Assembly (NCBI GenBank): GCA_903927345.1
Contig: CAIYMO010000056.1
Location: 1 to 39,768 of the forward strand
DNA: 39,768 nucleotides
Source: an uncultured Armatimonadota bacterium
GTDB taxonomy: Bacteria > Armatimonadota > Fimbriimonadia > Fimbriimonadales > Fimbriimonadaceae
Direction: 5' to 3'
Shown: piece after piece, positions 8,635 to 38,398 of the stretch
Layout of the letters: every line of letters begins with the position of its first letter
Position numbering within the stretch: position 1 is the first letter of the stretch
Translations under genes and position numbers: made by a program
The notes under the pieces: generated by a model
What the model was told of the DNA's origin: nothing
The model's database searches: none
The model's input: the letters and a program-made list of their open reading frames with translations, nothing else

Positions 8635-9069
8635 TTCATTCGCCGGAAGGCAACCCGTCACTCGGTGTTGATCCCGATGTTGTATTTGGCGGCGTTGGCG
8701 GCTTCTGGGCTTCATAGTGTTGCCAAAGAGGGGATCGCAAGAGCCTTGTCGTGCTTTCTCGATGCCAGTTCGTATCGGTGTCACTGTAGCGAGTCCATGT
8801 ATCTTGGTCTTTCCAAACCGCTACGTATTGATTCTTGCTTTTCTCAATGAGACCCGTCGATCCGTAGCTGAAAGGCGAAAACTGGGCTGAGTAGGTCACC
8901 GTGGCCGTGGCGCTCTTAGGGCCAGTCTGTTCGACAGAATCAATCGTAGCCGTCACAGTCAAGTCCCTTACGTTTGCGCAAAGCTTGGTGAGACGCCCTT
9001 GAATTTCGGAGCGGTCAATACTCCCTCCAGACTCGAATGTGACCCGGTATCCGCTCGGAAAGTTGGTGT
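8476..9069. repeat. 594-bp duplicated block, copy A (direct repeat of 11002-11595)
   Basis: Contains the 3' half of small gene A and the 3' end of the conjugation gene now fused to merA. It has the same length as the copy at 11002-11595 and reads about 85-90% identical by eye, with no net insertion or deletion. The left edge is gradual, falling where the two small proteins start to resemble each other. The right edge is abrupt, after GTTGGTGT on the plus strand, where merA sequence begins. Confidence 0.85.
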
Positions 9070-10869: not shown

Positions 10870-11160
10870 ATGAAGAAAAGGCTAAAACTGGTCGTCACCA
10901 AGAACGCGATGGCCGTCATTTCCGACCCTGCGAAAGGCGATGCGACCAAGCGAGCCGTCGAACGCGCGATGGGATTCACGGAGGGTGTCGAATTCGAGAC
11001 TCCACGAACTCTCATGATTGAGAACTGCCCCCTCGGCGTTCACATCGACCCAAGTCGCGGCCCGGTCGTCATCGTCTCAAAATTTCAAGGCTTTCCTGCG
11101 ATTCCAGACGAGCTTATTGAAGCTCTCCTGCCTTTCACAACTGAGGTCGCGATAGCCTGA
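10870..11160 (+). CDS. Unknown small protein, copy B
   Basis: A 96-residue protein, paralogous to the one at 8323-8634 and not a family I recognise. It has a strong ribosome site (AGAGGAGG, nine bases before ATG). The N-terminus is basic (MKKRLKLVVTK), and the C-terminal half (PRTLMIENCPLGVHIDP onward) is nearly the same as copy A. It converges on the conjugation gene at 11162-12400 with one base between stops. The preserved reading frame in both copies, despite many silent and some replacement differences, indicates a functional protein. A role in transfer or copy control is only a guess from position. Confidence 0.7.
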   Translation: MKKRLKLVVTKNAMAVISDPAKGDATKRAVERAMGFTEGVEFETPRTLMIENCPLGVHIDPSRGPVVIVSKFQGFPAIPDELIEALLPFTTEVAIA

Positions 11161-11595
11161 TTTATTCTCCAGACGGCAAACCGTCACTCGGTGTCGTCCC
11201 AGAGCTTGAGCTTGGCGGGGTTGGCGGCTTCTGGGCTTCGTAGTGTTGCCAAAGAGGGGATCGCACGAGCCTTGTGGTGCTTTCCCGATGCCAGTTCGTA
11301 TCGGTGTCGCTGAAGCGAGTCCACGTATCCTGGTCTTTCCAGACTGCCACATATTGATTCTTGCTCTTCTCGATGAGGCCATTCGATCCGTAGCTGAATG
11401 GTGAAAACTGGGCTGAGTAGGTCACGGTGACCGTCGCGCTCTTGGGCCCAGTCTGTTCGACCGAATCAATCGTAGCCGTCACAGTCAAATCTTTTACGTT
11501 CGCGTAAAGCTTGGTAAGCCGACCTTGAATTTCAGAGCGGTCAATACTCCCTCCAGACTCGAACGTGACCCGGTATCCGCTCGGAAAGTTGGTGT
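11002..11595. repeat. 594-bp duplicated block, copy B (parent of 8476-9069)
   Basis: Covers the 3' half of small gene B and the last 143 or so codons of the membrane protein at 11162-12400. It is the intact context of the block that truncates merA. Equal length and scattered substitutions suggest the two copies come from related plasmid backbones rather than a very recent duplication. Confidence 0.85.
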
Positions 11596-12400
11596 ATGAG
11601 AGGTAGCCACTTTGGATCTCGCTGGCAATCGTCGTGTAAGGGGCCGCAAGAGTCTCTTTGCTTGGTCGCTTGTCGTCGAAGGCTATGTCACCCTCGTCCA
11701 TCTTCCAACTAAGTGACGCCTCACCTTCTTGCTGAATCAAAGCTCCTGTCTGGCGTTTCCATTCTCTCGACTTAATCTTCCACCCGCCTGAGTTCACAAG
11801 TCGATATTCGTTTTCAATGATTCGCTCGAAAATCAGATTGCCGTCTTGGTCTGTCCCACCGACGTTGCTGTACCAATTCTTAATTCCTGAGTTCCACCGG
11901 ACAAGCTCCGCGACCGTGGCACTAACTTCGTCGCCCGTCACTTGAGCGATATTCATCACCTTCAGTTTTTGAATGCTCTGTGTTTGATCGAAAAATTCTG
12001 TTGGGCTTGAAGAGGATTTGCCGTTCATGTCCCTGGAAGTGAATCCCGATGTCGTGAGATTCGTCGGGAATGAACCACCGTTCCAACCCGTTCGGTACTC
12101 CTCCATGACCTCTGCAACCTTCTCTTGGAGGCTCTTTTCTTGAGCTGCCGTCATTTCGGATGGCTTGTTTTTTTCGGCTGGTGGGATCGGCTTTTGATAG
12201 AAGTCTTGAGGGGTTCCGGTGATCAGAAGATAGGTTCCTCCAAGCAAGGCAACGGCAAGAGAAGCAACTGAAACGATCACGGACACGAACATCTTGACGC
12301 CCGAAAAGAAGGCACTCTCATCATGGACGTGCTTCTTGAGGTCGAACCGCTCTCGGGTTTCGACCTTTATCGGATTGGCGTTAAGGTTCGGCTCGCTCAT
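11162..12400 (-). CDS. Membrane-anchored VirB8/TcpC-like conjugation protein
   Basis: A 412-residue protein with a cytoplasmic N-terminus, one membrane helix (about 36-60) and an extracytoplasmic part. That part looks like two NTF2-like domains (about 90-230 and 265-390). The second has the typical pattern [18 protein letters not shown] ... [12 protein letters not shown] ... WHREST. Two NTF2-like domains behind one helix is the plan of TcpC/VirB8-type channel assembly proteins, so I infer a transfer role. The tail is Pro/Ser-rich. Its start overlaps the preceding gene by four bases. Its C-terminal third is duplicated in the merA chimera. Confidence 0.55.
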   Translation of the reverse strand: MSEPNLNANPIKVETRERFDLKKHVHDESAFFSGVKMFVSVIVSVASLAVALLGGTYLLITGTPQDFYQKPIPPAEKNKPSEMTAAQEKSLQEKVAEVMEEYRTGWNGGSFPTNLTTSGFTSRDMNGKSSSSPTEFFDQTQSIQKLKVMNIAQVTGDEVSATVAELVRWNSGIKNWYSNVGGTDQDGNLIFERIIENEYRLVNSGGWKIKSREWKRQTGALIQQEGEASLSWKMDEGDIAFDDKRPSKETLAAPYTTIASEIQSGYLSYTNFPSGYRVTFESGGSIDRSEIQGRLTKLYANVKDLTVTATIDSVEQTGPKSATVTVTYSAQFSPFSYGSNGLIEKSKNQYVAVWKDQDTWTRFSDTDTNWHRESTTRLVRSPLWQHYEAQKPPTPPSSSSGTTPSDGLPSGE

Positions 12401-13017
12401 CGCTGGTGCTTTTGCTTTTGGCTCTCCTGTTCCTGAGATTGTCGAGTTGCTTCATCAGCGGCTCGCCCGGACTGTTGCTCACGGGCCGCCTGGCGTAGCT
12501 CTTCGGATTGTTCGGTTTTCGAAAGGCTCGCCTCACGGAATTCCTGATTCTGGCGTTCAGCGTCCCACTTACTGGAGTGGAGGTGGCCTTGCTCAACCTT
12601 TGCCCCAAGGCTTTGTTCGAGATCGGAGTGCTCACTCTGCTTTGCGTTCTTCCATTGCCATTCGCTGGCCTGGCTCTCGATGCGGTTCGGTTCCTGAGAG
12701 ACATTCTGAGTCATCGTGGTCTTGGCTTCCCACTGATCGAATCGGGTCGCTCCATCTTGTCCTTTATCCTGTCGCTCGGCGTAGAGTTGAACACTCTCGG
12801 GCCGATTCTTGGAATCCACCTCGATGTTGTTGCGAACCACCTCGTCACCAAACTTTGAAGCGAACTGAGAAACGTGAGGGCCTTGGTTTTCCGGGTGCTC
12901 TGAAAGAACGTATTGGCGACCGTTGGTCTGCATATAGAAAAGTGATTCCTGACCGTTCTCGTGCTCGAAGATAACTTCGTGCTTTGACCAGCGTTCTTCT
13001 TGGTCGCTCGTTCTCAT
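12397..13017 (-). CDS. Hydrophilic protein of the mobilization operon, unknown function
   Basis: A 206-residue protein with no signal, membrane segment or family I recognise. The first 100 residues look folded (EVIFEHENGQESLFYMQTNGRQYVLSEHP...), and the rest is Gln/Glu/Arg-rich and probably coiled-coil or disordered (SKTEQSEELRQAAREQQSG). It is coupled by four-base overlaps both to the coupling-protein gene upstream and to the VirB8/TcpC-like gene downstream, so a transfer role is likely. Confidence 0.6.
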   Translation of the reverse strand: MRTSDQEERWSKHEVIFEHENGQESLFYMQTNGRQYVLSEHPENQGPHVSQFASKFGDEVVRNNIEVDSKNRPESVQLYAERQDKGQDGATRFDQWEAKTTMTQNVSQEPNRIESQASEWQWKNAKQSEHSDLEQSLGAKVEQGHLHSSKWDAERQNQEFREASLSKTEQSEELRQAAREQQSGRAADEATRQSQEQESQKQKHQR

Positions 13018-15158
13018 GGTTTCTGTCTCGCTTTGAATCGTCTGTAGGGCTTAACCGCTTCTTCCGTTTCCTCTGGACTGGCAAGTGTTGGCTCGGCAAT
13101 CATGGCAACAGGATCTGCAACCGGAGTCGCGCTTGGAGGGGCGGCTTGAGCTGGGGCGGGCGTGGGAGTAGTCGCTGGAGGATTTGACGGCGGTGTTGCA
13201 GGGGCTTGTGCTTGTGGCTGATCGGGATTTTGTGGCGTTGGCGTAACAAGCTTTCGCCTAACGGCCAAATCTTCGTCCCAACCTTTGAGCCACTGGGCAT
13301 AGGGATCATCCCAAGGCTTGAAGTCCTCGATAGCGGCTCCGCTGATGAGGGCAGCAGTTGCGCCATCCTGCTTTGGAAAGAGCCAATTGCCGGGGTAAGT
13401 GTGACGGTATGCGCCAATTCCAGGGACCAAGTAGTAGCCCGTCAAACCGGATTCTTGGCTCGTCACCGGAATCGTGAAGAACTGGGATTCCATGACCGAC
13501 TGCCGTTTGATGTAGTGCTCCGTCTCAGTTATCGAGTGACTCTTTGAACCTTGAGACGTTCCAAACCCCGTTGGGGTGGATGTTCCTCTCTGTTCGCTTC
13601 TTCGTGTCTCGATAGCCTCGTAGTCTCCAAAGAGCTTCGATGCCCATTCTGCCGTCTTCGGACTTTCGAGTCTGAGGATCGATTTGCAGTTGCACTGGCT
13701 GGTGATGACTCCGGCCATGTTCTCGCCGTAAACCTCTTTGATGCTGTCGAAGTCCTGGAATCCCAGAACGACGCAGACGCCCTTTGAGCGACCTTTCGTC
13801 AAAAGGCTGGTCAACCCTTCAAGCTTGCCCGCGTCTCCAATCTCATCGAGGAACATCCAGTTCCGTCTCAACCCTGCTCGGTCTTCGGGAAGGTCTAGGA
13901 GAAGTTCAGAAACGCGCTTGAAAATGACCTGGTTGATTCGGTCAATTGCGGCCCTTGCCCGCTCATTGTTTCCGAGAATGAGAACGCAGTTGCTTGAGCC
14001 ACGGTTCTGAACCCAGTCGGTGAGAGAAATCTTTCTGCCCGCATCCTGAGCCTTGTCCCACATGGCCGCAACTGCCTCGTAAGGAGTGAGCTTGGTCGCC
14101 ACGGTAGACATGACCTCATCCAGCGTCTCGCGGTTGTGATAGAAGCGGTCAACGATATGCTGAGTCTCGGGGCACTGCTCAAGAATGCGCTTGAGCCTAT
14201 CGACCGTGTACATCGACTTGATGAGGTCGCTGAATCTCCAATCTGCGTTCGACCGGATAAAGGAAAGCATGACTCCGTACAAAAGGAGCTGGGCAGAATC
14301 GACAAAGAAGGGCTGTGAGGCGTTTTTATCGGAAGGTATGAGAGTGACGGCGGCCTGGAGCGCGGCGGTCGGCTCGGTGATGTCTTTGGCGATATCCCAA
14401 GCAAGGCACCGCTCATCAAAAGGATTCAGCGTGAAGACTTTGCCCGGAATTCCCATGCTCGGAATTTGCGAGGCGATGTCCTGCTTCGCGTCGTAAATCA
14501 GCGCCCGGTGGTCTGCTCCGGTTCCGATATCTTTGAGAACTTCGCGCATTAGAAGTTGGATCGTGACGGTCTTTCCGCTTCCGGTCGTGCCAACCACCAT
14601 GAAGTGCGAAGTGGCGAACTTGGAAGGAATCCTCAAGCCTCCCCAAGTGATGCCCGGATCATTCTTATCCAGAACGAATTCGCTGGCCTTGCTAGCCGCG
14701 AGATCCACTGGCTGGGCGCGACCGCGAACAAGCTTGTTGACGACGTTGGGAATCGGCTGGTTAAAGCTGAACCACCAGGCGATTGCGGCAAAGATCAGGG
14801 CGGCGGTTCCTGCGCTGCTGTTGTCGGCTTTCAGATAGACCGCGATTGCGAATACCACGATGGAAGCCGCAATCGGGATCAGACTCTTGAGAATGCCTTT
14901 CGCGAGATATTCAACGAACCGAGAAAATAGGAGCGAGGTTCGCGGATTGGCTTTGTCGATCTGTGCGTAGAACAGGAGCGCGTATAGTGCGGTTACGATT
15001 CCCGCGACGATTGGCCCTTTGCGGAAGACTGCGTTGACTAGTTCGAAGACGCCGAATCCCAGGACAACAAGACAAAGCGGAATCATCTTCCGCTGAAAGT
15101 CCGTCGAAACCATCGAACGGACGACTCGCCTTATTTCGACAGTCGCCGTATCCGCCAT
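13014..15158 (-). CDS. Type IV coupling protein (TraD/TrwB family)
   Basis: ATPase that brings the relaxase-DNA complex to a secretion channel. The 714 residues include four hydrophobic N-terminal segments (about 26-46, 51-66, 92-110, 118-133). Walker A GTTGSGKT is at 190-197, YDAKQD follows, and Walker B WMFLDEI is at 434-440. The C-terminal tail (about 620-700) is very Pro/Ala/Thr-rich, as in some coupling proteins that contact partners. It starts nine bases after the relaxase stop. The low-complexity tail looks real because the reading frame continues to PYRRFKARQKP. Confidence 0.9.
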   Translation of the reverse strand: MADTATVEIRRVVRSMVSTDFQRKMIPLCLVVLGFGVFELVNAVFRKGPIVAGIVTALYALLFYAQIDKANPRTSLLFSRFVEYLAKGILKSLIPIAASIVVFAIAVYLKADNSSAGTAALIFAAIAWWFSFNQPIPNVVNKLVRGRAQPVDLAASKASEFVLDKNDPGITWGGLRIPSKFATSHFMVVGTTGSGKTVTIQLLMREVLKDIGTGADHRALIYDAKQDIASQIPSMGIPGKVFTLNPFDERCLAWDIAKDITEPTAALQAAVTLIPSDKNASQPFFVDSAQLLLYGVMLSFIRSNADWRFSDLIKSMYTVDRLKRILEQCPETQHIVDRFYHNRETLDEVMSTVATKLTPYEAVAAMWDKAQDAGRKISLTDWVQNRGSSNCVLILGNNERARAAIDRINQVIFKRVSELLLDLPEDRAGLRRNWMFLDEIGDAGKLEGLTSLLTKGRSKGVCVVLGFQDFDSIKEVYGENMAGVITSQCNCKSILRLESPKTAEWASKLFGDYEAIETRRSEQRGTSTPTGFGTSQGSKSHSITETEHYIKRQSVMESQFFTIPVTSQESGLTGYYLVPGIGAYRHTYPGNWLFPKQDGATAALISGAAIEDFKPWDDPYAQWLKGWDEDLAVRRKLVTPTPQNPDQPQAQAPATPPSNPPATTPTPAPAQAAPPSATPVADPVAMIAEPTLASPEETEEAVKPYRRFKARQKP

Positions 15159-15167
15159 TAAGAGATT

Positions 15168-17642
15168 CTACCGGCGGCGGCGTTCATGTTTCTGCCCCTC
15201 ATCTTGTGTTTGTTGATTTCGTAACTCTTCTTGATTTCGCAAAATGGTGTGAGCCATGTCCTTTTGTCTCGACCTTTCCATCTCTCTAGCAAGCCGTCCA
15301 ATCTCGTCACCTGCTTCCAGCTTGGTCAAGTAGAAGGTCGTTACCTCCCTCGCTCTGGATGCCTGAACGTAGGATAGTTCTCGATCTTGCATCGAACCAC
15401 CTGCAAGAACATAGGCTCGGGTCGTCGTTGCTCCTTGGGCCTTGTGCGTAGTCGAAGCGTATCCCAGGGCAATGTCGGTCATTGCATCAGACTCAAAGCT
15501 GACCTTTTCTCCGGAGTCAAGTCGAACAGTGACTCGTCCACTCTTGAGGTCAAAGGAATCAACCACGCCTCGTTCACCGTTCATGACTCCCATTGCCCCG
15601 TGATTTCGGGTGAACATCACTCGGTCGCCTTTGTAAAACTGGTCTGATCCAATCGGAATCGCTTCGCCCCGGATCTCACCTGCATCCTTCCGGATTTCCT
15701 GCGCCATGCGATTGAGCCTCCCTACTTCGGTTCGTGATCCTGCGAGAATCAACGTCTCGGCCATCGGCTTCTTGTCGGTATGCCAGTCTTTGATGAGGGT
15801 TCTCATGGCGTCCTCTCGCACGTCTTCGACCTTGACCAATCCCCGCTCAATGAATGCGTCCAGAGCTTCTTGTGCTCTGCCTTCGGCAATATCTTTCACG
15901 GCTCGTCTCGCCCAAGCATCGTTTTGCCGCCGAATGTCTTGAAGCTCGGCATGACCATATCGCTCCCCAAGTTCCATGAACGGGGCACCGGGGCCAATCG
16001 GTTGAAGTTGCTTTTCGTCCCCAACGAGCACGAGCTTGGCTCCTACTTTCTCGCAATACAGGGCAAGTTTTTGGAGTGCTGGCGTGGCAACCATTCCGGC
16101 TTCATCAACGATCATAATGCTCTTTTTGCCAAGCTTGCTTCGGCCCTTTTCCATGTCCATCAGAACCTTGGCGATTGTCTTGGATTCAATGTCTGCGCCG
16201 TCACCAAGTTCAGAAGCGGCCCTCGCGGAAAGCGCGGCTCCTTCAACCGTGAAGCCCTCGTCCTGCCAAATCTTCCGTGCGACATCGAGCATCCTCGTCT
16301 TTCCCGTCCCTGCCATTCCCGAGACGACAGCAAGTGCGCCGGACTTCTCCGTGATATGCCAAATCGCTTTCATCTGCTCTTCACTCAAGGTCGGATTCTT
16401 AGCAAGAGCACCGACTACCAATTCTTGAGAAACGGTGTGACTGTGATCTTCGGATAGCTTCTCCGCACTACCGAGAAGACTTGCTTCCATTGCCAGCATT
16501 TCCCGCGTTGTGAACCTGTATTCGCCATAGTAGCGGCCTAGTCGGATGATTTCCGGGCTGTGAGCCAAGTGGTCACGCGCTCCTGCAAGAAGTTCGTCCA
16601 CTAGCAGTCCGGATGCTTGGGCTTCCTCGGCCATCGCCCGTATGAAGTCGCGCTCGGTGAAGTGCGCCTGTGAAGATGTCAGTCGAAAAGTCGCAAGTGC
16701 GGCGGCCTGGTCAATCTCATCCTCGATGTTGCGAGTGATTCTCACCGCTCCCATCAGCCTGTCGGCTTCTAAAGTTGACCAACCTGCTTCTTGCCCGTCC
16801 TTTTGCCAATCACCGAATAGCAGCATCCGGGAGATAGCTTCTTTGGTATCCCTCGTCTCGATGGCCGCAACTGCCGCGCCCTCCGCTGTCCGAATTCCCC
16901 TTCGGTCAAGCTCTTCTTCGATTGCCGCCCTTCTCTTGCTGAACTCATTGATCAGCTCCTCCGGAACTCCGGAGATCTCAAACCATGTCCGGAACTTCTC
17001 AACGGGAATTCCCAGCTCACGTTCTAGCCTTCCGGCCAGCTCAAGGCGGTAGAGTGCCCCCGCCGCCATTTTCGCTTCAAAGAGTGAAAGTGAGCTTACG
17101 GTTCCCGTGGTGCCGTCCTCTCGAACCCCGATATTCATCACAAGCGCGTGGGTATGCAATTGCGGATCGAGTGCCCTGGAAGTCGAATGCTCAAAGCAAG
17201 CTATGACCAGGCCCGTTCGGTCAAATTCTGACCCTCCCTTCCCGCGCCTGGTCTTGGCGGCTGTGTCTTGAAGATAACCAAGAGCTGACTTGACCGCTTC
17301 AAAGTGTGCCCGCTGTATTTTCTGGCGGTTGTCGTCACTGAGCTGCGACCAAAGAACAGAAACTGATTTCGGTGCTGAGAAGGTCAAATCCCAACCGGGC
17401 CGATGTTCGGCTTTTCCCTCGTGCTTCTGGAGCTGCACAAGTGCTCGCGATCCATCTGGAGAGAGACCGTCGAAAAGATTGTAGAGCTGGTCTGACTCGA
17501 CCTCACCGAGTAGCCCCAGTTTTTCCGCGCCTTCGCCAAACCAAATCCCTTGTGGCTCTCCGCCCTCAAGGTAATAGTCTTCACGGGCAAGCCCAAGGTA
17601 GTAGCTGGCTTGACCACCAGACATTGCACTCATACTCAGCAT
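15168..17642 (-). CDS. MobF (TrwC/TraI-type) relaxase-helicase
   Basis: Nicks the origin of transfer and unwinds the plasmid for conjugation. The relaxase domain begins MLSMSAMSGGQASYYL with paired tyrosines (14-15 and 23-24). The metal-binding histidines are in FEHSTSR (His152) and LHTHALVMN (His163, His165). The helicase half has Walker A GMAGTGKT (442-449), Walker B IMIVDEAG and the C-terminal TTHKAQGATTTRAYV and YVQASRAR motifs. I use the ATG at 17642, which gives the canonical MobF start. A TTG at 17648 overlapping the upstream stop is the alternative. At 824 residues it is shorter than TraI and near TrwC size. Confidence 0.93.
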   Translation of the reverse strand: MLSMSAMSGGQASYYLGLAREDYYLEGGEPQGIWFGEGAEKLGLLGEVESDQLYNLFDGLSPDGSRALVQLQKHEGKAEHRPGWDLTFSAPKSVSVLWSQLSDDNRQKIQRAHFEAVKSALGYLQDTAAKTRRGKGGSEFDRTGLVIACFEHSTSRALDPQLHTHALVMNIGVREDGTTGTVSSLSLFEAKMAAGALYRLELAGRLERELGIPVEKFRTWFEISGVPEELINEFSKRRAAIEEELDRRGIRTAEGAAVAAIETRDTKEAISRMLLFGDWQKDGQEAGWSTLEADRLMGAVRITRNIEDEIDQAAALATFRLTSSQAHFTERDFIRAMAEEAQASGLLVDELLAGARDHLAHSPEIIRLGRYYGEYRFTTREMLAMEASLLGSAEKLSEDHSHTVSQELVVGALAKNPTLSEEQMKAIWHITEKSGALAVVSGMAGTGKTRMLDVARKIWQDEGFTVEGAALSARAASELGDGADIESKTIAKVLMDMEKGRSKLGKKSIMIVDEAGMVATPALQKLALYCEKVGAKLVLVGDEKQLQPIGPGAPFMELGERYGHAELQDIRRQNDAWARRAVKDIAEGRAQEALDAFIERGLVKVEDVREDAMRTLIKDWHTDKKPMAETLILAGSRTEVGRLNRMAQEIRKDAGEIRGEAIPIGSDQFYKGDRVMFTRNHGAMGVMNGERGVVDSFDLKSGRVTVRLDSGEKVSFESDAMTDIALGYASTTHKAQGATTTRAYVLAGGSMQDRELSYVQASRAREVTTFYLTKLEAGDEIGRLAREMERSRQKDMAHTILRNQEELRNQQTQDEGQKHERRRR

Positions 17643-17644
17643 GG

Positions 17645-18121
17645 TCAAATCCCTCCCGTAATTTTCTTGACGATTTCAGTGGCCTCGGCCTCGGTTGCAT
17701 CGAGCTTGCTCACAAGAACCAGAAAGAACATATCGGCAAGAGATTTTCTTAGCGCGGTCAATTCATCTGCGGTGCCGCTTTGGGTTTGCCCTTCAAGACT
17801 TCTGATAACAAGCCGCCGGGCATATTCAGACGGACTCATTCCGCTCTGCTTCCCTATCTCAGTGAGCTTCTTGACGTAGAACGGATCGAGCCGAAACCCG
17901 ATTGCATCTTGCGGCTTGGGGGTGTTCGGACGTCCGAACACTTCGGACGGTCGCGAAGATTCGAGTTCCTTTTTGAGGGCCGCTAACTCCTTCTTGTCGT
18001 ACACGACGACTGGCCTGGTTTTCTTCCTGGCTCGTCCTTTGGTGAGCTTTCCGGCTGTCGCGAATCGCTCTAATGTTCTCGTGCTTACCCCAAGATATTC
18101 CGCCGCTTCCTTCTTCTCCAT
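17645..18121 (-). CDS. HTH + ribbon-helix-helix accessory protein of the relaxosome
   Basis: A 158-residue DNA-binding protein with two parts. Residues 1-45 are a MerR/excisionase-like HTH (MEKKEAAEYLGVSTRTLERF). A ribbon-helix-helix-like segment follows (GFRLDPFYVKKLTEIGKQSGMSPSEYARRLVIRSL, about 74-110), then a helical tail. Position just before the relaxase and the RHH part suggest an oriT-binding accessory protein like TrwA/MobC. The linker (Val61-Thr67, VFGRPNT) is encoded by a copy of the 20-bp palindrome, so part of the protein sequence is dictated by a DNA site. Confidence 0.72.
   Translation of the reverse strand: MEKKEAAEYLGVSTRTLERFATAGKLTKGRARKKTRPVVVYDKKELAALKKELESSRPSEVFGRPNTPKPQDAIGFRLDPFYVKKLTEIGKQSGMSPSEYARRLVIRSLEGQTQSGTADELTALRKSLADMFFLVLVSKLDATEAEATEIVKKITGGI
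17922..17941. promoter_or_regulatory. parS-like palindrome, copy 1 (inside accessory gene)
   Basis: Perfect 20-bp palindrome GTGTTCGGACGTCCGAACAC, read by the gene as VFGRPNT. The core GTTCGGACGTCCGAAC is shared with five other sites. Confidence 0.65.
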
Positions 18122-18220
18122 GACTCTTTAGATGCTACCGAATCGCGACAAGTTGCCATGTCGTTCATCCAAAGGTGAGTCAGGTGTGATTGTGCTGAGT
18201 GCGGGGATTGTAGTGCTCAG
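18122..18220. other. Intergenic region with inverted repeats; candidate oriT
   Basis: About 100 bases between the accessory gene and parB. It holds TGACTC/GAGTCA, the hairpin CGACA-8-TGTCG (18146-18163), and GCTGAG-16-CTCAGC (18194-18221), the last overlapping the parB stop and possibly a terminator. Origins of transfer usually sit upstream of the accessory-relaxase operon, as this does. I see no sequence that I can match to a known MobF nic site. Confidence 0.35.
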
Positions 18221-19030
18221 CTAGGACGAGGATGCGAGGCTGGCGAGGGCCTCAGTGAGAGCGTCGCGGATGCTGTCTTGAGAGTGCTCGGCAGAGTGGA
18301 AGCGGATAGTGATGGTGGCGTCTGGGAGCTTGATAGAAGTGGAACTGGAGGGCGGTGAGTCGTGGTCGGTGGAGCGGGGTTGGCGGAGAGTCTTGACGGT
18401 GAGCTGGCCGTGGAGGGCTTGGGTGAGGAGCTGACGCTGGGTGTCAGGGTCTTCTTCTTTAGCTATCTCAAGGAGCACGGATCTGGTCAAGCGTTCGGAC
18501 GTCCGAACGCTCTCCATCATGTCTTCGGGCAGAGTAAGAATCCTGAGCGTCTCGTTGATACTCGCTGGAGACTTTCCGAGTCTCGCCGCAAGTTGCCTTT
18601 GAGAAAGGCTGAATTCCACGATGAGCCGCTGATAGGCGTGAGCCTCTTCAACCGGATTTAATTCTTTCCGGTGGATGTTCTCAATGATTTGGATTTCAAG
18701 TTTTCGGTGCTCTTCGACAGTTCGCACAACGCAGGGAATCGTTTTGAGTCCCGCTGCTTTTGCCGCCGTGTATCGACGCTCACCCGCGATCAGACGGTAG
18801 CGATCTTCCGCCACAACCGAGACAATGCACGGCTGAATAATGCCGTGCTCAAGGATGGACGCTTTAAGGTCTTCAATATCCCCTACATCCTTTCGCGGCT
18901 GGTCGGGGTCTGGTTCCACCTGCTCAATCGGAAGCATCGCAAGGCGGGCAACGTCGGACGCTAGAGGGTTAAAGGTGAGTCCAACCTCACCTTGTCCAAT
19001 GGATTCAAATTTCTTCTTTAGGCTGGCCAT
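18221..19030 (-). CDS. parB: ParB, centromere-binding partition protein
   Basis: A 269-residue ParB. The N-terminal CTPase/nuclease-fold domain has DPDQPRK and AGERRYTAAK (about 84-92) and QIIENIHRKELNPVEEA. A central HTH follows (LSQRQLAARLGKSPASINETLRIL), then a C-terminal dimerisation tail. It binds centromere sites and loads ParA. The gene overlaps the end of parA by 13 bases. Codons for about residues 174-180 (SVRTSER) are formed by a copy of the repeated palindrome immediately after the HTH, so parB may carry one of its own binding sites. Confidence 0.93.
   Translation of the reverse strand: MASLKKKFESIGQGEVGLTFNPLASDVARLAMLPIEQVEPDPDQPRKDVGDIEDLKASILEHGIIQPCIVSVVAEDRYRLIAGERRYTAAKAAGLKTIPCVVRTVEEHRKLEIQIIENIHRKELNPVEEAHAYQRLIVEFSLSQRQLAARLGKSPASINETLRILTLPEDMMESVRTSERLTRSVLLEIAKEEDPDTQRQLLTQALHGQLTVKTLRQPRSTDHDSPPSSSTSIKLPDATITIRFHSAEHSQDSIRDALTEALASLASSS
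18491..18510. promoter_or_regulatory. parS-like palindrome, copy 2 (inside parB)
   Basis: GCGTTCGGACGTCCGAACGC, a perfect 20-bp palindrome with the shared 16-bp core; flanking bases differ from copy 1 yet remain self-complementary. Read as SVRTSER in ParB. Confidence 0.65.
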
Positions 19031-19797
19031 TTTTCAAGAACCTCCTTCACTAGAGAACGATATGCCTGAGATCCCCGATTCGATGTCTTTGAAAGCACGA
19101 TAGGAATGAGTGGCTCGTCCGATTCGCCTTCCATCTGGCTTCGCTCAATCGCTTCGGTGCGAGGGATACGGGTTTCAAGTATTCGGTCTTTGATTGGATC
19201 AAGGATTCTCACCGCCTGGGCCTGGCGCTCCTCCCCGTGCCCCGTCACCATAGTCAACAGAATTCTCCAGTCGTAGGGGTCGCCATTTTTGATACTTTCC
19301 AAAGTTGAGAGAAGGTCTGAGAGGCCCTTGAGTGCGTGGCCCGCAAGTTGAGTAGGAATGAGAATCTTGTCCGCGCAAACGAGCGCATTGACCGAAAGAA
19401 CATCGAGCGTCGGCTGGCAATCAATGATGATGTAGTCGAAGCCCTCGACTTTCGCGATCACCTTCTTGAGGACGGACTCCCTGAATGTCCTCGAATCCAT
19501 CAGCCTCGCGGTTCGCGCTAGCCGGATGTCGCTCGGGGCTAATTTCAGATTCTCTTCGCTCGTGTCAAGCAGAATGTCCGCAAGCGGCAAATTCTCCTCT
19601 CCAAGAACCTCTGAAATCGTCGGAAGCTCTGTTTCGTCAATATCCACCCCAAGGCCATAAGTCGCATGGGCTTGAGGGTCAAGGTCGATCAAGAGCACTT
19701 TGTGGCCTTGGCGGGCAAGCCCTGCCGCGAGATTCACGGCTGTCGTCGTCTTGCCCGTTCCTCCCTTTTGGTTAATGATCGCAATGGTTCTGCTCAT
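19018..19797 (-). CDS. parA: ParA, partition ATPase
   Basis: A 259-residue Walker-type ATPase with the deviant Walker A KGGTGKTT (about 11-18), LIDLDPQAHATYGLG and YIIIDCQPTLDVLSVNAL (Walker B region). It is a short ParA without an N-terminal HTH, so autorepression probably falls to ParB or to the RHH protein at the head of the operon. The start overlaps the rep stop by four bases and the end overlaps parB, giving the order RHH-rep-parA-parB in one transcript. Confidence 0.95.
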   Translation of the reverse strand: MSRTIAIINQKGGTGKTTTAVNLAAGLARQGHKVLLIDLDPQAHATYGLGVDIDETELPTISEVLGEENLPLADILLDTSEENLKLAPSDIRLARTARLMDSRTFRESVLKKVIAKVEGFDYIIIDCQPTLDVLSVNALVCADKILIPTQLAGHALKGLSDLLSTLESIKNGDPYDWRILLTMVTGHGEERQAQAVRILDPIKDRILETRIPRTEAIERSQMEGESDEPLIPIVLSKTSNRGSQAYRSLVKEVLEKWPA

Positions 19798-21695
19798 AGG
19801 CTCTTGTCCTTTTCAAATCTAAACGGTGCCGGATTGTGCAACTCGTCCCATTTCCAGAAATCGAGCACCTCCACTTTCTTTTCATCCCTCAAAAACTCTG
19901 CAAACATCTTCGCTTTCTCTGCGGGGTCTTCAAGTCGTGTTTTCATCTGCTCGACGAATTTTGGACTCATGTCTTTCATTCTCGCGAGCCGAACTCGGTT
20001 CTTCTCCTCGAAGGTTTCCACAAGCTCTGGGTGCTCCACTGCGAAGGTTGTGAGTAGTGAAGACTCATACTGATTGAACGCTTCCGTGAACTGATCTTGG
20101 TGAGCCTTCCGGGCGTCCTCGACTGCTTGTCTCCGGGCCTTGCGCTCATCTTCTTCGAGTTTGGCAAAGAACCCGTCACCAAACCCGCGAACCGCTAACG
20201 AAAGGCTTCGGATTGCGCTCTTTTCCTGATTCTGATTTCTCCGGACAAATCCGCCAAATGCTCGACCAAGGGCAGCGGGATCGAGATCTCTGCCAAGAAC
20301 TCTGGCGATTGCATCCAAGAATTTTTCGGCTTGGTCGCTTTCCTGGCGACTCGGCAAAACGGTTGGGTCGCCTTCTCGTCCGGCAAGGGCGGCGTAAAAG
20401 CATCCGACGAATTCAACCGCTTTGCAGGTCTGTTCGGACGTCCGAACACTTTCAGGAATCGGCCAATTTTCCTCGATTGCTTTTCTGAGCATCCCGAGTT
20501 TATTGCGGCTAATCTTCCTCAATGGCAAAGAGCCGATCTGTTCTTCGATTCTCTCTAACGGATACTTGCTTGCTAGGGATCGAGCCGCTTCCTCATCGAA
20601 CCCCTCCTCAACCAACATCCGGTATGAACGAAGTTCACTTGACCCCGCAGCAACAGCATCCGAAACAACCACCTGCTGTTGTTGTTTAGAAAAGTTGTTT
20701 ATAGATGTTGTTTTAATATCGGTTCGATTTTGGAACCCTTCCTGGTTCGATTTCGGAACCGTTCCCGGTGCGAATTTGGAACTGTTGTCCGGTTCGATTT
20801 CGGAACTGATTCCCCGGTTCGATTTTGGAACCGTCTCTGATTTCCCGGTTCGATTTCGGAACCGATCACCCGGTTCGATTTTGGAACCGTTGGTCATTTT
20901 AGGTTCAATTCGAGGTCTTTCTTGGGATTGCTCAAGCCACTTGATGCCATAGGTCGCGGCCTGGCTGTCGGCCCCTGCGTTTGGGTCAAAGAATCCTTCG
21001 GAAACCTTACAAACGTGATTCTTGTCAAGTGCTTCTCGTATCGCAATGCTCATGGTGGATCGCGATGCAATGCCCGCTCTTCGCATGATCTCGGTGAATG
21101 ACATTTCGACCTGCTGGCGTCTGAATCCAAACTTGGTCTGGAAGCCAATGGTGTGCCGAATAATCACGCCAACTACCTTGACTAGTGCAAGCGGTTCGTT
21201 CGGAATGGTGAAGTCGAAGAAGTCGTTCGGGATGTGGGTCAGATTGCCGTTTCCAGCAAAGAATCCATCGAAATTCTCACGGTCGGTGATGTAGTCCTCG
21301 CGCTCATCCCAGCGAAGGGAATACAGGGCGCTGAATCCTTCCTCTCCCGCCCTGTGGGGTTGACCAAAACGCAAGCAATTGATGAAGCGATTTTCCACGG
21401 CTTCCTCGATTGCCTCTTTGATCCGGCCACGTCCGATCCCTGCCTTCTCGATCAGTTCTCGATAGGTGACGGTGGCTTCTGGGTTTTGTGGATTGCCATG
21501 CTCGTCGCTCCAGCCAAGGGTCTTTCGAATCAGATAGGCAACCAGTCGAAGGCAACCTCGGGACGCACGGGGAAGCACTACGTCGAAAAATTGGTTCGGC
21601 GTATAAGTTGTGCTCGACGTTGGCGGCGCGTAGCCCTGGAAGGCTTGCGCTGCTGTCGGTGCTCCAATATGGTCGTTGGCTTCGCTCTGATTCAA
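19794..21695 (-). CDS. Plasmid replication initiator with internal iterons
   Basis: A 633-residue protein that I infer to be Rep. Residues 33-130 and 152-255 are an internal duplication of a winged-helix-like module. Compare NQFFDVVLP ... LRLVAYLIRKTLGW with NDFFDFTIP ... VKVVGVIIRHTIGF, and VTYRELIEKAGIGRG with MSFTEIMRRAGIASR. Such tandem winged helices are the plan of many iteron-binding initiators. Residues 260-325 are a linker encoded by frame-cycling DNA repeats. Residues 355-415 (EEQIGSLPLRKISRNKLGMLRKAIEENWPIP) match a segment common in phage/plasmid replication proteins. Residues 416-421 come from the repeated palindrome. The rest is helical. The gene begins one base after the RHH gene stop. 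Confidence 0.75.
   Translation of the reverse strand: MNQSEANDHIGAPTAAQAFQGYAPPTSSTTYTPNQFFDVVLPRASRGCLRLVAYLIRKTLGWSDEHGNPQNPEATVTYRELIEKAGIGRGRIKEAIEEAVENRFINCLRFGQPHRAGEEGFSALYSLRWDEREDYITDRENFDGFFAGNGNLTHIPNDFFDFTIPNEPLALVKVVGVIIRHTIGFQTKFGFRRQQVEMSFTEIMRRAGIASRSTMSIAIREALDKNHVCKVSEGFFDPNAGADSQAATYGIKWLEQSQERPRIEPKMTNGSKIEPGDRFRNRTGKSETVPKSNRGISSEIEPDNSSKFAPGTVPKSNQEGFQNRTDIKTTSINNFSKQQQQVVVSDAVAAGSSELRSYRMLVEEGFDEEAARSLASKYPLERIEEQIGSLPLRKISRNKLGMLRKAIEENWPIPESVRTSEQTCKAVEFVGCFYAALAGREGDPTVLPSRQESDQAEKFLDAIARVLGRDLDPAALGRAFGGFVRRNQNQEKSAIRSLSLAVRGFGDGFFAKLEEDERKARRQAVEDARKAHQDQFTEAFNQYESSLLTTFAVEHPELVETFEEKNRVRLARMKDMSPKFVEQMKTRLEDPAEKAKMFAEFLRDEKKVEVLDFWKWDELHNPAPFRFEKDKSL
20431..20448. 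promoter_or_regulatory. parS-like palindrome, copy 3 (inside rep)
   Basis: TGTTCGGACGTCCGAACA, perfect 18-bp palindrome; read as SVRTSEQ in Rep, the same frame as in ParB. Confidence 0.65.
20721..20918. repeat. Iteron-like repeats inside rep (candidate origin)
   Basis: Seven copies of a 17-bp unit, GGTTCGATTTYGGAACC on the plus strand (Y = C or T), start at 20721, 20744, 20767, 20791, 20816, 20847 and 20872. A decayed eighth starts at 20902. The copy at 20767 is degenerate (GGTGCGAATTTGGAACT) and the one at 20791 ends in T. Each intact unit has 5-bp inverted arms GGTTC/GAACC. Spacings are 23, 23, 24, 25, 31, 25 and 30 bases, so units fall in all three codon frames and encode unrelated peptides (SKIEPG, FRNRTG, VPKSNRG). 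Conservation is therefore of DNA, as for Rep-binding iterons. Confidence 0.8.
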
Positions 21696-21696
21696 A

Positions 21697-21912
21697 TCAA
21701 CTCGTCATTTGTGATATCTGTTTAGATGCTAGGGAACTGATGTCGATTCCAGAACTTGCGGCGTGGTCTTTGACCATCCGGTTGATGAGCCAACTTCGTG
21801 ACCGTTCTTCGCGGTCGCGCAACAATTCGAGATACTCTAAGACTCCTGGTTCAAACGTGACTCCCGCTGGCGTCACGGTTCTTCCGGTGGTCGGTTTTCT
21901 TCCTCGGGCCAT
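21697..21912 (-). CDS. Ribbon-helix-helix regulator heading the rep operon
   Basis: A 71-residue protein starting MARGRKPTTGRTVTPAGVTF. The ATG at 21912 has AGAGGA five bases upstream, and an earlier in-frame start at 21945 would add 11 residues without a ribosome site. A beta strand (TVTPAGVTFEP) and two helices (YLELLRDREERS; SWLINRMVKDHAA) fit the CopG-type RHH fold. It is the first gene before rep, so copy-number or operon control is likely by analogy with CopG. Confidence 0.7.
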   Translation of the reverse strand: MARGRKPTTGRTVTPAGVTFEPGVLEYLELLRDREERSRSWLINRMVKDHAASSGIDISSLASKQISQMTS

Positions 21913-21951
21913 GTTTATCCTCTGGGTGATCAGTCGCAATCTCATCAGGAG

Positions 21952-21980
21952 ATTTCAACCCGATTGATTTCCGCTGTCAA
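21952..21980 (-). promoter_or_regulatory. Promoter of the RHH-rep-parA-parB operon
   Basis: On the minus strand TTGACA (21980-21975) precedes TGAAAT (21957-21952) by 17 bases, about 40 bases upstream of the RHH gene start. Confidence 0.6.
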
Positions 21981-21994
21981 CCCAATAAATGAAG

Positions 21995-22010
21995 ACGGGG
22001 CACCCCCCGT
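21995..22010. promoter_or_regulatory. Small GC hairpin upstream of the rep promoter
   Basis: ACGGGG-CACC-CCCCGT forms 6-bp arms, 15 bases upstream of the -35 box. It is a possible operator for the RHH protein, or a structural element. Confidence 0.35.
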
Positions 22011-22039
22011 AAAAGCATCGGGAATCTTTGGGTAGGGAA

Positions 22040-22059
22040 GTGTTCGGACGTCCGAACAC
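22040..22059. promoter_or_regulatory. parS-like palindrome, copy 4 (intergenic)
   Basis: GTGTTCGGACGTCCGAACAC, identical to copy 1, between the divergent rep operon and the toxin-antitoxin pair. It is the only perfect copy outside a gene. Confidence 0.7.
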
Positions 22060-22103
22060 GCGGTTTTTGAATCCACCGCTTCTTTGGCTCATCCAATAGA
22101 GTT

Positions 22104-22310
22104 ATGAGAAGAAGACGACAATACCAACCAATTCCATCCCCTTTGCTCGGTCAGCAATTTCAACCTGAGCAAGCGGGTAAAGCGATCATCGAGATACTTC
22201 GCGAGATTCACCAAGACCATTTTGAACTTGACTCTCACTATGTCGAGAGAATCATCAAGAGTGCGATCAAGCAGAGTCGGTTGGAGCGAGAGAAGGGAGG
22301 TGCGGAATGA
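22104..22310 (+). CDS. Putative antitoxin of the PIN pair
   Basis: A 68-residue basic protein (MRRRRQYQPIPSPLLGQQF, then a helical segment AGKAIIEILREIHQDHFELDSHYVERIIKSAIKQS). No named domain recognised. It sits directly before a PIN-domain gene with an ATGA overlap, the usual order of antitoxin before toxin. Confidence 0.65.
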   Translation: MRRRRQYQPIPSPLLGQQFQPEQAGKAIIEILREIHQDHFELDSHYVERIIKSAIKQSRLEREKGGAE

Positions 22311-22807
22311 GAATGTCGGTCTTTGATTGCAACGTCTTCGTGCAAGCGGTGGCGTTTCCTGGAGCTGCTTATCAGTGCTTTGCCCACGTCTTGAAAGGGC
22401 CGGATCGTCTACTCACGAGCAAATACGTGCTCGATGAGGCGCGGTACGTTCTCTCGATGCCTTGGCTCCAAGCCAAGCTCCCCGGAATCACGCCAAAGCG
22501 AGTTGAAGCCCTGTTCCATCATCTTCACCGGGCGGCGATATACGTTGAACGAGTCCCCAAGGTGTTCGATTTTCCGCCTGATCCGGACGATGCGCCATAT
22601 TTGGATCTCGCCATTCACACGGCGGCCTTTGCGCTTGTCACCAGGGACAAAGAGATTTTGAAATTGCGCGAACCGAACTACGAACTCGGTCGGTTGCTGC
22701 GTCAACGACATTCAGCCCTTCACCTTGCGATTCCGGAGGAATTTCTCGATCTGGCTCATGTGAAGCCATCCTTGAATGAGATCCTCACCCGTCGTCGAAG
22801 CGGGTAG
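22307..22807 (+). CDS. PIN-domain protein, putative toxin
   Basis: A 166-residue PIN-fold ribonuclease-like protein. The acidic active-site positions are visible as FDCNVF at the N-terminus, DEARYVL in the middle, and PDPDDAPYLDLA then VTRDKEIL near the end. Such proteins of the COG1569 type act as putative toxins in two-gene addiction modules. The toxin role is inferred from family and from the coupled small gene. An internal ATG at 22313 is an alternative start. Confidence 0.78.
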   Translation: MRMSVFDCNVFVQAVAFPGAAYQCFAHVLKGPDRLLTSKYVLDEARYVLSMPWLQAKLPGITPKRVEALFHHLHRAAIYVERVPKVFDFPPDPDDAPYLDLAIHTAAFALVTRDKEILKLREPNYELGRLLRQRHSALHLAIPEEFLDLAHVKPSLNEILTRRRSG

Positions 22808-22811
22808 CGAA

Positions 22812-22836
22812 AGGAAAGGCCCGAAGGCCCGTTCCT
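22812..22836. terminator. Hairpin between convergent genes
   Basis: AGGAA-A-GGCC-CGAA-GGCC-CG-TTCCT folds as a nearly complete stem with a tetraloop just after the PIN gene. It overlaps the stop of the convergent gene at 22835 and may end transcripts from both sides, though there is no long T-run. Confidence 0.5.
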
Positions 22837-23113
22837 AGTATTCGCTTGGGAGAAGAACCGTCGTTGAAGCGCGGTCTGCCTCGGTGATGATCCAGAACTT
22901 CGTGCCCACTTCGTCGTGATACACGGAGAAGATTCGAGAACCGTCTCCTAACGCGATATCGTTCGCCTCGCGGTCGTCTTTGCAACAATCTCCCCAGTCG
23001 CCTCGTGCATGACGCCGCAACGAGCGGAGAACATCTTCTGGGAGAAGCGTGTCTCTTGCTCCTGGGGTGATTAGGGTTTGTCCGAGTGAGAACTTGGTGC
23101 TTTCGATTTTCAT
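22835..23113 (-). CDS. Conserved small plasmid protein
   Basis: A 92-residue protein of a family often annotated only as 'plasmid-related protein'. Recognisable features are GQTLITPGARDTL, the core HARGDWGDCCKDDREANDIAL, GSRIFSVY and a terminal FWIITEADRASTTVLLPSEY. Function is unknown. It is commonly found on mobile elements near antirestriction genes such as ardC, as here. Ribosome site AAGGAGG lies upstream of the ATG. Confidence 0.8.
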   Translation of the reverse strand: MKIESTKFSLGQTLITPGARDTLLPEDVLRSLRRHARGDWGDCCKDDREANDIALGDGSRIFSVYHDEVGTKFWIITEADRASTTVLLPSEY

Positions 23114-23327
23114 AAATGCCTCCTTGAAAAGGTTTGTGTTTCTTCAACCCTAATCGTGAGAAACCAGAACCTTGCTTCAAGCGAAGGCATGATCTGGGCA
23201 AGAAAATTATCGTCAAACAGACGCTCGGGGCATGACAGCTCGGCTGGCGGGACGTGAGCTTGTTGACGGCATTAAGCCTCTGGGAATGAAAATCGGAAAG
23301 GGAAAGTTGGGCCAAACGGCAAACCGA

Positions 23328-24131
23328 TTACTCGACAATCGCTTCCAAGATGAGCGACGCGGCTTTTCGCACGGCGTCAAGGGATTGGGTGAGCTGCGCC
23401 TTGTCTCCGCGATAGAGCTGGATGTAGTCGGAGCTAGCGGTTCCGGCATCGAGGCCGATGGCTTGGGCGACTACAAAGGCTACGGCTTCAGCTTCAAGCT
23501 CCCGGCTTGTCTTAGTGGAGCCTTTCCTTTCATCGCCCTGATGCAGGATCTCGTGCGCAAGTTCGTGAACTAAAGTGGTGAATTCCTGTGAAGGGTCAAG
23601 CCCTTCTTTGAGCGCGATCTTTCCACCCCTAGAAACACCTAACGCACCTCCGAGTTGGTCGCTGTACTCAAGCTCGATGGAAAGTTGCCTGACCAGGCCC
23701 TTCAATCTCTCGGAGTAGTCGCCCGGATCTCCGGTGACTTTGGCGAACTCTGGCAGAGGTTCGCCGTCGGTTTGGGTTACGTCAAAGACATAGACCACGC
23801 GGAATCTGATCGATTTTTCTTCATCCTTTTCAGCTTCATTTTTGGGTGATTCTGACTCTTGGTTTTTGAAGGTCATTGGCGCGAGAATCGCGATCCCCTT
23901 CTCTCCTGCCTTGACGTATCGGCCGAATGACTTCCAAGTGTTGAACCCTGCTACGTGGGTTGCATCAGGTTTTTGAGCCATGATCAGAAGCACATTTCCC
24001 AGGCTGTAGCGGTGGAATTTCGCCATTGTCGAAAGGAACTCGGTGAGCTGTTCGCTGTGTCCGGAATCGAGATTTTCGGCTAACTGATCGATGTGCTTTT
24101 CGATGATGTCTTTTGCTTGTTCGGTCTTCAC
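23328..24131 (-). CDS. ardC: ArdC-like antirestriction protein
   Basis: A 267-residue protein with the ArdC plan. An N-terminal ssDNA-binding domain (about 1-95, with FHRYSLGNVLLIMAQKPDATHVAGF and GEKGIAILAP) is followed by a zincin-type metallopeptidase domain with HELAHEILH and the downstream ELEAEAVAFVVAQAIG glutamate motif. ArdC proteins protect incoming plasmid DNA from host restriction during conjugation. It is somewhat shorter than plasmid pSa ArdC. The ATG is preceded by a GGAG-type ribosome site. Confidence 0.87.
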   Translation of the reverse strand: MKTEQAKDIIEKHIDQLAENLDSGHSEQLTEFLSTMAKFHRYSLGNVLLIMAQKPDATHVAGFNTWKSFGRYVKAGEKGIAILAPMTFKNQESESPKNEAEKDEEKSIRFRVVYVFDVTQTDGEPLPEFAKVTGDPGDYSERLKGLVRQLSIELEYSDQLGGALGVSRGGKIALKEGLDPSQEFTTLVHELAHEILHQGDERKGSTKTSRELEAEAVAFVVAQAIGLDAGTASSDYIQLYRGDKAQLTQSLDAVRKAASLILEAIVE

Positions 24132-24198
24132 GGTGGCTCCTTCAAAGATAGATTTCTCACCTATCGGAGCTAATCAGCGATCTGGTTCAGGGAATTGC

Positions 24199-24214
24199 GT
24201 TTGGACGTCCGAAC
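24199..24214. promoter_or_regulatory. parS-like palindrome, copy 5 (one mismatch)
   Basis: GTTTGGACGTCCGAAC in the space between the divergent ardC and radC-like genes; one base differs from the shared core. The remainder of this 229-base gap shows no other clear element. Confidence 0.5.
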
Positions 24215-24360
24215 ACTCTTTCTCCAGGATTTTCCATAGGCGTCGGGCCTGAGCAGCGCTTCAACTACGCAAGTCGAAGGCGGTTCCTGTGGGAAATTCT
24301 GGAGATCCTAAGTCACCTCGCGCAAAGCGATTCCATATCCCCAAAGAAGGGAGAAATCGC

Positions 24361-24855
24361 ATGCGGAGACAACAAGCAGCTCGGATTCAAGAACCCAATG
24401 TAGAGTTGAGCGATCTGATGCCTCCAGTTTTTCGTGTTCAACTCGTTAGGGAAGCGGGCGTCAAGAGAACTGGAATATCTGACGCTCATGACGCTGTGGC
24501 CCTCTTGCGGCGGTATTTGGAACATGAAGACAGGGAACACTTCGTCACGCTCATGCTCGACGTGAAGAATCAGGTGATCGGGATTCACACCGTGAGCATC
24601 GGGAACCTCAACAGTGCGATTGTCTCGCCTCGTGAGGTTTTCAAGGCCGCAATTCTCGCGAATGCTGCTTCGATCATCCTCGGCCACAACCACCCTTCCG
24701 GCGATACAACACCCTCACCCGAAGACATCCAAGTCACTGAAGTCCTTCACCATGCGGGGACGCTTCTCCATATCGACGTGCTCGACCATGTGATTATCGG
24801 TGAAGAGGGCGCGTTCTGTTCCCTCCGTCGTGATGGCAAGATGCCACGCGATTAA
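24361..24855 (+). CDS. radC: RadC-like JAB/MPN-domain protein
   Basis: A 164-residue protein with the RadC JAB metal-binding motif HNHPSGDTTPSPED and the upstream VTLMLDVKNQVIGIHTVSIGNLNSAIVSPREVF. It lacks the N-terminal HhH region of chromosomal RadC, as plasmid copies usually do. Despite the name, a DNA-repair function is unproven. The ATG at 24361 is chosen because AAGGGAG precedes it; an upstream start at 24289 would add 24 residues. Its stop overlaps the convergent AbiEii stop. Confidence 0.85.
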   Translation: MRRQQAARIQEPNVELSDLMPPVFRVQLVREAGVKRTGISDAHDAVALLRRYLEHEDREHFVTLMLDVKNQVIGIHTVSIGNLNSAIVSPREVFKAAILANAASIILGHNHPSGDTTPSPEDIQVTEVLHHAGTLLHIDVLDHVIIGEEGAFCSLRRDGKMPRD

Positions 24856-37352: not shown

Positions 37353-38336
37353 TTAAAATCGGATGCGTTCGATGTCATCGAGCGTCGCTCGGTGGTTGCG
37401 ACGGTCATAGAGCTTGGTCGTCCGGCTGTCTGCGTGACCCGCAATCCACTGCGCCATTTCCAGGGTTCCACCGTTCTCAAGGTAGTTCGTGATTCCCGTC
37501 GCCCTGAAGCTGTGGCAGGAGAATCGTCCCTGAAGTTCAGCGTCGCGCACTCTGCGCTGAATCATTTGGTAGGCGTCCGTTCGGTTGATGGGCTTGTCAG
37601 AGAGCTTCCCAGTTCTCCCGATGGCACTCCTGAACAGGAGACTGTTTGGCTGATTCTCAATTCCGGCCGCTTTTATGTAGGCGTCGAGGTACTCCTCAAG
37701 TGTGTGGTGGCAAGGAATCTCCCTCTCCTTTCCTCCCTTCTCATTGAGCCGGATGACCGTTCGTCGACCAATGGCCATGACGTCTTTAACGCGAAGCGAA
37801 ACAACCGCTTCTACTCGGGCAAATGTAAACGCCATGACTCCGATAAGTGCCCGGTCTCGGAGTCCAACAATCGAGTGGGCGTCGAAGCTCTCGAAGAGCT
37901 GGTGCATTTCCTCTGGCGTGAACGCTGGGGTCTTTCCTTCCGAACGTGAGAACCTCGGCGTCTTCACTTCTCGCACCGGGTTACGGTCAAGGACGCCTTT
38001 CTCAACAAACCAAGAGAAGAGCATCCGCAATGCTGAGAAGTGCCGCTTGATGCTCGGGTTGGAAAGATCGCGCGAAACCTCTTCTCGGTAGGCGGCAAGG
38101 TGGATGCTCGTGATTCCCTCAAGACGAAAGCTCCGCTCATCGCACCACTGGGCAAACCTGGCCACGTCGCGCATGTAGGCGGCGCGGGTGTTGGCGTTCG
38201 GAATCGTGACGGCGAAGAATTCGAGGAAAGCCCTCTGTGCCTCTGTAGGCGCGTTTGCAAAAAGAGCGGGCATGAGATGACCCCCCGAAACTGGGGTGTT
38301 CGTCTTCGCAGGTAGTAGAAGTGTGTCGCCGTCCAT
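37353..38336 (-). CDS. Tyrosine recombinase (Xer-like)
   Basis: A 327-residue site-specific recombinase. An N-terminal SAM-like core-binding domain (30-125) is followed by the catalytic domain with Arg174 (FTFARVEAVVSL), Lys200/203 (NEKGGKEREIP), His275-x-x-Arg278 (CHSFRATGITNYLENGG), His301 (GHADSRTTKLYDRR) and nucleophile Tyr310. All catalytic residues are present. The ATG at 38336 is chosen for its ribosome site GAAGGA. A dif-like site lies 35 bases upstream, so a role in multimer resolution or module exchange is likely. Confidence 0.9.
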   Translation of the reverse strand: MDGDTLLLPAKTNTPVSGGHLMPALFANAPTEAQRAFLEFFAVTIPNANTRAAYMRDVARFAQWCDERSFRLEGITSIHLAAYREEVSRDLSNPSIKRHFSALRMLFSWFVEKGVLDRNPVREVKTPRFSRSEGKTPAFTPEEMHQLFESFDAHSIVGLRDRALIGVMAFTFARVEAVVSLRVKDVMAIGRRTVIRLNEKGGKEREIPCHHTLEEYLDAYIKAAGIENQPNSLLFRSAIGRTGKLSDKPINRTDAYQMIQRRVRDAELQGRFSCHSFRATGITNYLENGGTLEMAQWIAGHADSRTTKLYDRRNHRATLDDIERIRF

Positions 38337-38347
38337 GGTCTTTCCTT

Positions 38348-38359
38348 CAGACGAGTCTG
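38348..38359. promoter_or_regulatory. Short inverted repeat before the recombinase
   Basis: CAGAC-GA-GTCTG, between the dif-like site and the recombinase ribosome site; possible accessory or regulatory site. Confidence 0.35.
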
Positions 38360-38370
38360 GCACACAAGAA

Positions 38371-38398
38371 GCCTCACATAAAAGGGGTTATGTGTGGC
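38371..38398. other. dif-like XerCD recombination site (11-6-11)
   Basis: Left arm GCCTCACATAA, centre AAGGGG, right arm TTATGTGTGGC. The arms are inverted repeats with one mismatch. The geometry (11-6-11) and the inner CATAA...TTATG match the E. coli dif site. It lies directly upstream of the Xer-like gene. No second copy is seen in the window. Confidence 0.65.

Follow-up and report, generated by a model that had tools for sequence, protein, structure and literature searches.

The 39,768-nucleotide contig analyzed here (the window), from an uncultured Armatimonadota bacterium of the family Fimbriimonadaceae, carries a 28-bp dif-like site just upstream of a gene encoding a tyrosine recombinase. 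Judging from their anatomy and from comparison with related plasmids, site and recombinase very probably constitute a self-contained multimer-resolution module that relies on a single recombinase. Judged by the literature searched, it is new as a defined recombinase/site family, and ordinary in kind; no published description of the motif was found in the open-access literature, in a search that was not exhaustive. The parts of the module are as follows:

38371..38398, minus strand: dif-like recombination site, 28 bp (predicted); in gene orientation GCCACACATAA-CCCCTT-TTATGTGAGGC
38388..38398, minus strand: outer arm, 11 bp, gene-distal; its outer edge is the limit of homology between related plasmids
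38382..38387, minus strand: asymmetric 6-bp centre CCCCTT, presumed from dif/loxP geometry to be the strand-exchange region
38371..38381, minus strand: gene-proximal arm, 11 bp
37353..38336, minus strand: XerD-like tyrosine recombinase, 327 aa from ATG 38336 (336 aa from GTG 38363)

The original prediction placed a dif-like 11-6-11 sequence 35 bases before the recombinase start. The sequence is found exactly as quoted, reading GCCTCACATAA-AAGGGG-TTATGTGTGGC on the forward strand (38371-38398), and the distance holds for the ATG at 38336. The arms mirror each other at 10/11 positions. No further copies with up to 3 mismatches are present in the window (0 were expected), and an invertible switch was rejected, as no second, inverted copy lies inside it. 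In the 3.1-Mb host genome, of which the window is one entire contig (C56), CATAA-N6-TTATG occurs at 3 places, and long symmetric arms are found at the window site only.

The open reading frame of the recombinase spans 37353-38363 on the minus strand. Translation probably starts at ATG 38336, because an AAGGA ribosome-binding site lies just upstream and the resulting MDGDT is conserved in relatives; the upstream in-frame GTG at 38363 is a possible alternative. Pfam detects a SAM-like domain at the N-terminus and a catalytic domain of the Phage_integrase family, and alignment to Escherichia coli XerD (1a0p) shows that the catalytic R-K-H-R-H-Y residues are all present. The best NCBIfam model is XerD, yet it scores 140 bits against a cutoff of 330, while the XerC model reaches 120 bits against 335; assignment as an XerC or XerD equivalog was rejected, as neither cutoff was reached. 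Since the host genome already has two separate chromosomal XerC/D-like genes of ordinary type, the plasmid recombinase appears to be an additional enzyme. Its closest relatives are Armatimonadota records.

Conservation of the site beside related recombinases

Within Armatimonadota, the site lies at the same place in four contigs (the window included) whose recombinases are 93-100% identical, and likewise in a fifth, where a recombinase fragment is 88-89% identical; a linked recombinase stands beside the site in every close relative. Homologues of the recombinase (E <= 1e-30) were detected in 21 of 291 Armatimonadota genomes, and an ATAA-N6-TTAT palindrome is found upstream of the homologues in most of these 21. 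The site core occurs in 12 of the 291 genomes, and the extended site in 8 of 85 genomes of the family. This rarity led us to reject the host chromosomal dif as its identity, which would call for one copy per chromosome across the clade; a scan of the genus with three dif-like patterns gave no conserved candidate for the host dif. One-mismatch sites in genome G047 are probably chance matches, their symmetry being weak.

A tblastn search of plasmids with the recombinase returned 2562 records with relatives, many of them distant (~25-30% identity). From these, 25 were sampled, picked mostly among the closer ones, covering several phyla and 26-52% identity. A palindrome with the ATAA-N6-TTAT core and an arm symmetry of at least 9/11 was present in 20 of the 25, always upstream, with 31 bp to 1.7 kb separating it from the start codon, and in 0 of 2500 shuffled loci of ~5 kb each. 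The absence of the site upstream of homologous recombinases, which the original prediction had named as a finding that would speak against it, is thus not what these plasmids show. Relatives at 33-34% identity are among the palindrome-bearing plasmids, with AATATR as their centre. When 12 plasmids were searched over the whole record, 10 contained exactly one site with a family centre; the Abditibacteriota plasmid pIAD-21 (L029 / AP024153.1) has three family sites, at 19486, 23572, and 55148, and also three recombinase-like places. Among PLSDB plasmids no close DNA relatives were found, and a 30-bp query with the window site gave two partial matches in 72,556 plasmid records, one of them on a recombinase-carrying plasmid (Pseudolysobacter). 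A protein search of viral contigs found no recombinase relatives, and only fully symmetric site matches in such contigs reliably adjoin a recombinase (2/2).

The architecture was compared across 31 distinct sites, pre-selected for a symmetry of at least 6/11, a selection that favours the complementarity percentage, not co-variation at variable columns as such. ATAA/TTAT is constant in all 31, while the outer seven positions vary and change as mirror images. Cells changed in both arms numbered 76, against 26 +/- 4 in shuffles, and the arm covariation of 0.535 (0.165 when shuffled) was reached in 0 of 500 shuffles. Complementarity amounted to 91.5%, compared to 70% in shuffles and 22-50% in slid registers. 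If a single protein binds both arms, such mirror-image co-variation would be expected; together with the 10/11 symmetry, it supports the earlier suggestion that such symmetrical arms may let one recombinase act alone. The asymmetric centre is nearly fixed, as YGTCCT in most proteobacterial plasmids and CYCCTT in the clade of the window. Centre types cluster on the recombinase tree (11 changes versus 18.9 shuffled), a test weakened by near-copies and a few long branches.

From this arrangement we infer binding, cleavage, dimer resolution, and cointegrate formation along the following lines. Two recombinase protomers would bind the mirror-image 11-bp arms, which may be alike since a single protein occupies both, in contrast to dif with its XerC and XerD. 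Synapsis would then bring together two occupied sites of a plasmid dimer, and strand exchange across the 6-bp centre, whose asymmetry would set the direction, would yield monomers. The same reaction between different plasmids with a common centre would produce cointegrates.

Plasmid context and sequence breakpoints

On its sequence, the window is plasmid DNA of an Armatimonadota bacterium, and the plasmid is probably mobilizable, ParAB-bearing, and low-copy. The features on which this rests, and the DNA past the site, are listed here:

18221..19030, minus strand: ParB (partition)
19018..19797, minus strand: ParA (partition)
15168..17648, minus strand: TrwC/MOBF relaxase-helicase
13014..15158, minus strand: TrwB/TraD type IV coupling protein
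10966..24854, no strand: plasmid backbone in common with plasmid contig G151:C13, ~90-92% identity
38421..38795, minus strand: DUF1232 protein, the first gene past the site, in DNA absent from related plasmids

Genes for copper/heavy-metal efflux are also encoded on the contig. Among the related contigs, G092:C7 is circular, with a 55-bp overlap of its termini, and G151:C13 is circularly permuted, its 22.5 kb aligning to the window backbone across the contig ends.

Divergence between these plasmids falls at the site. Seven pairs were compared among the window, G151:C13, G092:C7, G092:C6, and G074:C8. On the gene side, 84-89% identity begins at the site; on the outer side, identity is at background level from the first bases, and no similarity was found in 1370 bp. 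The end of homology coincides with the outer edge of the site in 7/7 plasmid pairs and in one recombinase-free pair, from genome G095 (L074 9906, L075 9946), in which the two sites share 1646 bp at 96% on one side and nothing on the other. No related recombinase is found in that genome. Selection on gene and site alone, with changing flanks, could also leave such breakpoints. Exchange at the site appears favoured, however, because all pairs have their breakpoints at this one place and because the likeness of the G095 pair is one-sided. The site thus separates the recombinase module from accessory DNA, and it plausibly behaves as an exchange point too. Cointegrates, together with homologous recombination elsewhere, would explain a sequence change exactly at the site in related plasmids.

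Several arrangements were observed around individual sites. Genome G092 has two plasmid-like contigs, C6 and C7, with closely related recombinases and near-identical sites, which might cross-recombine. The circular 27-kb plasmid G074:C22 (L069, L090, L091) has backbone genes in common with the window; at ~11.7-13.7 kb it encodes a distinct recombinase, immediately preceded by a perfect site of its own, ACCCGACATAA-AGCACA-TTATGTCGGGT. A decayed version of the window-type site lies ~940 bp away, perhaps as the result of a module swap. In G093, a 194-bp direct repeat begins at one recombinase-free site, and beside a solo site on G093:C153 (L072 9921-13339) genes for a tyrosine recombinase, a DDE (TniA-like) transposase, and an AAA ATPase follow one another and may make up a site-hunting transposon, with the transposase and ATPase families judged by eye. 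Transposon ends as a general cause of solo sites were rejected, as the neighbours differ between sites. In the G095 pair, the L075 copy is a truncated BNR-repeat-like gene, and its contig also has a phage-type integrase.

Two repeats were seen in the window itself. P-type ATPase segments, 85% identical, lie at both contig ends (8-532 and 39244-39768), which probably means that the contig breaks off in a repeat or in metal-pump paralogues. Within the backbone, a direct duplication of ~595 bp (8477-9069 and 11002-11595, 88% identical) is matched in both its parts by G151:C13.

Alternative explanations and implications

The earlier suggestion of a multimer-resolution site for the adjacent recombinase draws support from family-wide conservation, arm co-variation, the single copy, and the plasmid context. 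A number of observations weigh against it. The strict site is missing in 5 of the 25 sampled plasmids and from several Armatimonadota homologues, and in Sphingobium pCHQ1 (L038 1622-1651) the arms are kept around a centre of 8 bp instead of 6, TGTCCTTT. The 16-bp core gave 61 matches in viral contigs versus 90 with a permuted centre, which is background and not predictive. The window contig is unclosed. Finally, six recombinase-free copies of the site occur in unrelated surroundings in G093, G095, G096, and G144, and pure dimer resolution leaves these unexplained. As a separate observation, the pCHQ1 recombinase is near-identical to that of S. bisphenolicum pBAR2.

The module may possibly have a dual role, a reading that we hold tentatively, in which the site serves dimer resolution within a plasmid and as a docking point between plasmids, with fusion, capture of chromosomal genes, and turnover of cargo including metal resistance as its consequences. 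Fusion of different plasmids would be expected here, since the 6-bp centre hardly varies even when the plasmids come from distant hosts, and chromosomal copies of the site could capture neighbouring genes.

The original prediction also offered a pdif-type module boundary that would explain the shuffling of metal-resistance modules; such a boundary would be worked by the host XerC/XerD. The boundary part stands in a weaker form, as homology goes no further than the outer end of the site; the pdif module does not. The 11-6-11 geometry, the inner CATAA/TTATG, and the two XerC/D-like genes of the host all fit such a module, but each plasmid has one site and no module-flanking pair, the arms are symmetric and co-varying and not of XerC/XerD type, and the site comes with its own recombinase in all close relatives. 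We consider this explanation improbable.

Nor does it seem at all likely that the site is the attachment site of an integrative plasmid, whose recombinase would insert it at chromosomal copies and excise it. Integration would agree with the one-sided likeness of the G095 pair and with the fact that four Fimbriimonadaceae-type genomes have copies without a recombinase, in part on large contigs. However, most genomes of the genus have no chromosomal copy, the related plasmids are circular and free, several of them carrying par genes, the recombinase has no arm-binding domain, and no integrated plasmid with the site at both ends was found.

That the palindrome is solely an autoregulatory operator of the recombinase operon is highly improbable: it does lie in the promoter region, and many relatives have a small CopG/DUF2513-type gene ahead of the recombinase, but the 6-bp spacing is strict, the asymmetric centre is conserved, breakpoints coincide with the site, and some sites are as far as 1.3-1.7 kb from the gene, beyond other genes. 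Use as both operator and crossover site is possible.

With multimer resolution as the preferred reading, a large, taxonomically broad, and nondescript group of plasmid proteins annotated as “tyrosine-type recombinase/integrase” gains a predicted cognate site and a probable function. Studies of specificity could draw on the natural recombinase/site pairs that the co-varying arms supply, and the breakpoints open plasmid fusion and cargo turnover to testing in a phylum about which little is known.

Comparison with known systems

Acinetobacter pdif sites (PMC13141974, PMC9947245) share the inner CATAA-N6-TTATG and the behaviour at module edges, but are multicopy, paired around modules, and dependent on the host XerC/D; in place of the opposite-orientation pair that flanks a pdif module, the window and related plasmids have a single site. 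XerS/difSL and XerH/difH (PMC5357621) likewise pair a dif-like site with a single, genetically linked recombinase. These systems are chromosomal, however, their arms are less symmetric, and the difSL centre is 11 bp; similarity between the window recombinase and XerH is weak (E 2e-5).

ResD/rfsF of F and Cre/loxP of P1 (cited in PMC5587640) are similar in having a single plasmid-encoded tyrosine recombinase for dimer resolution and an inverted-repeat site with a short asymmetric spacer. Spacer and arm lengths differ and the sequences are not close; the PDB matches of the window recombinase include no Cre chain. IncA/C RecHS is a tested plasmid case in which one site serves to form cointegrates as well as to resolve them (PMC5587640); its cognate recombinase is not identified in that paper. 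Its arms, at 14 bp, differ from those described here, while the plasmid-encoded recombinase, the formation and resolution of cointegrates, and the adjoining resistance island are points of likeness to the module proposed for the window.
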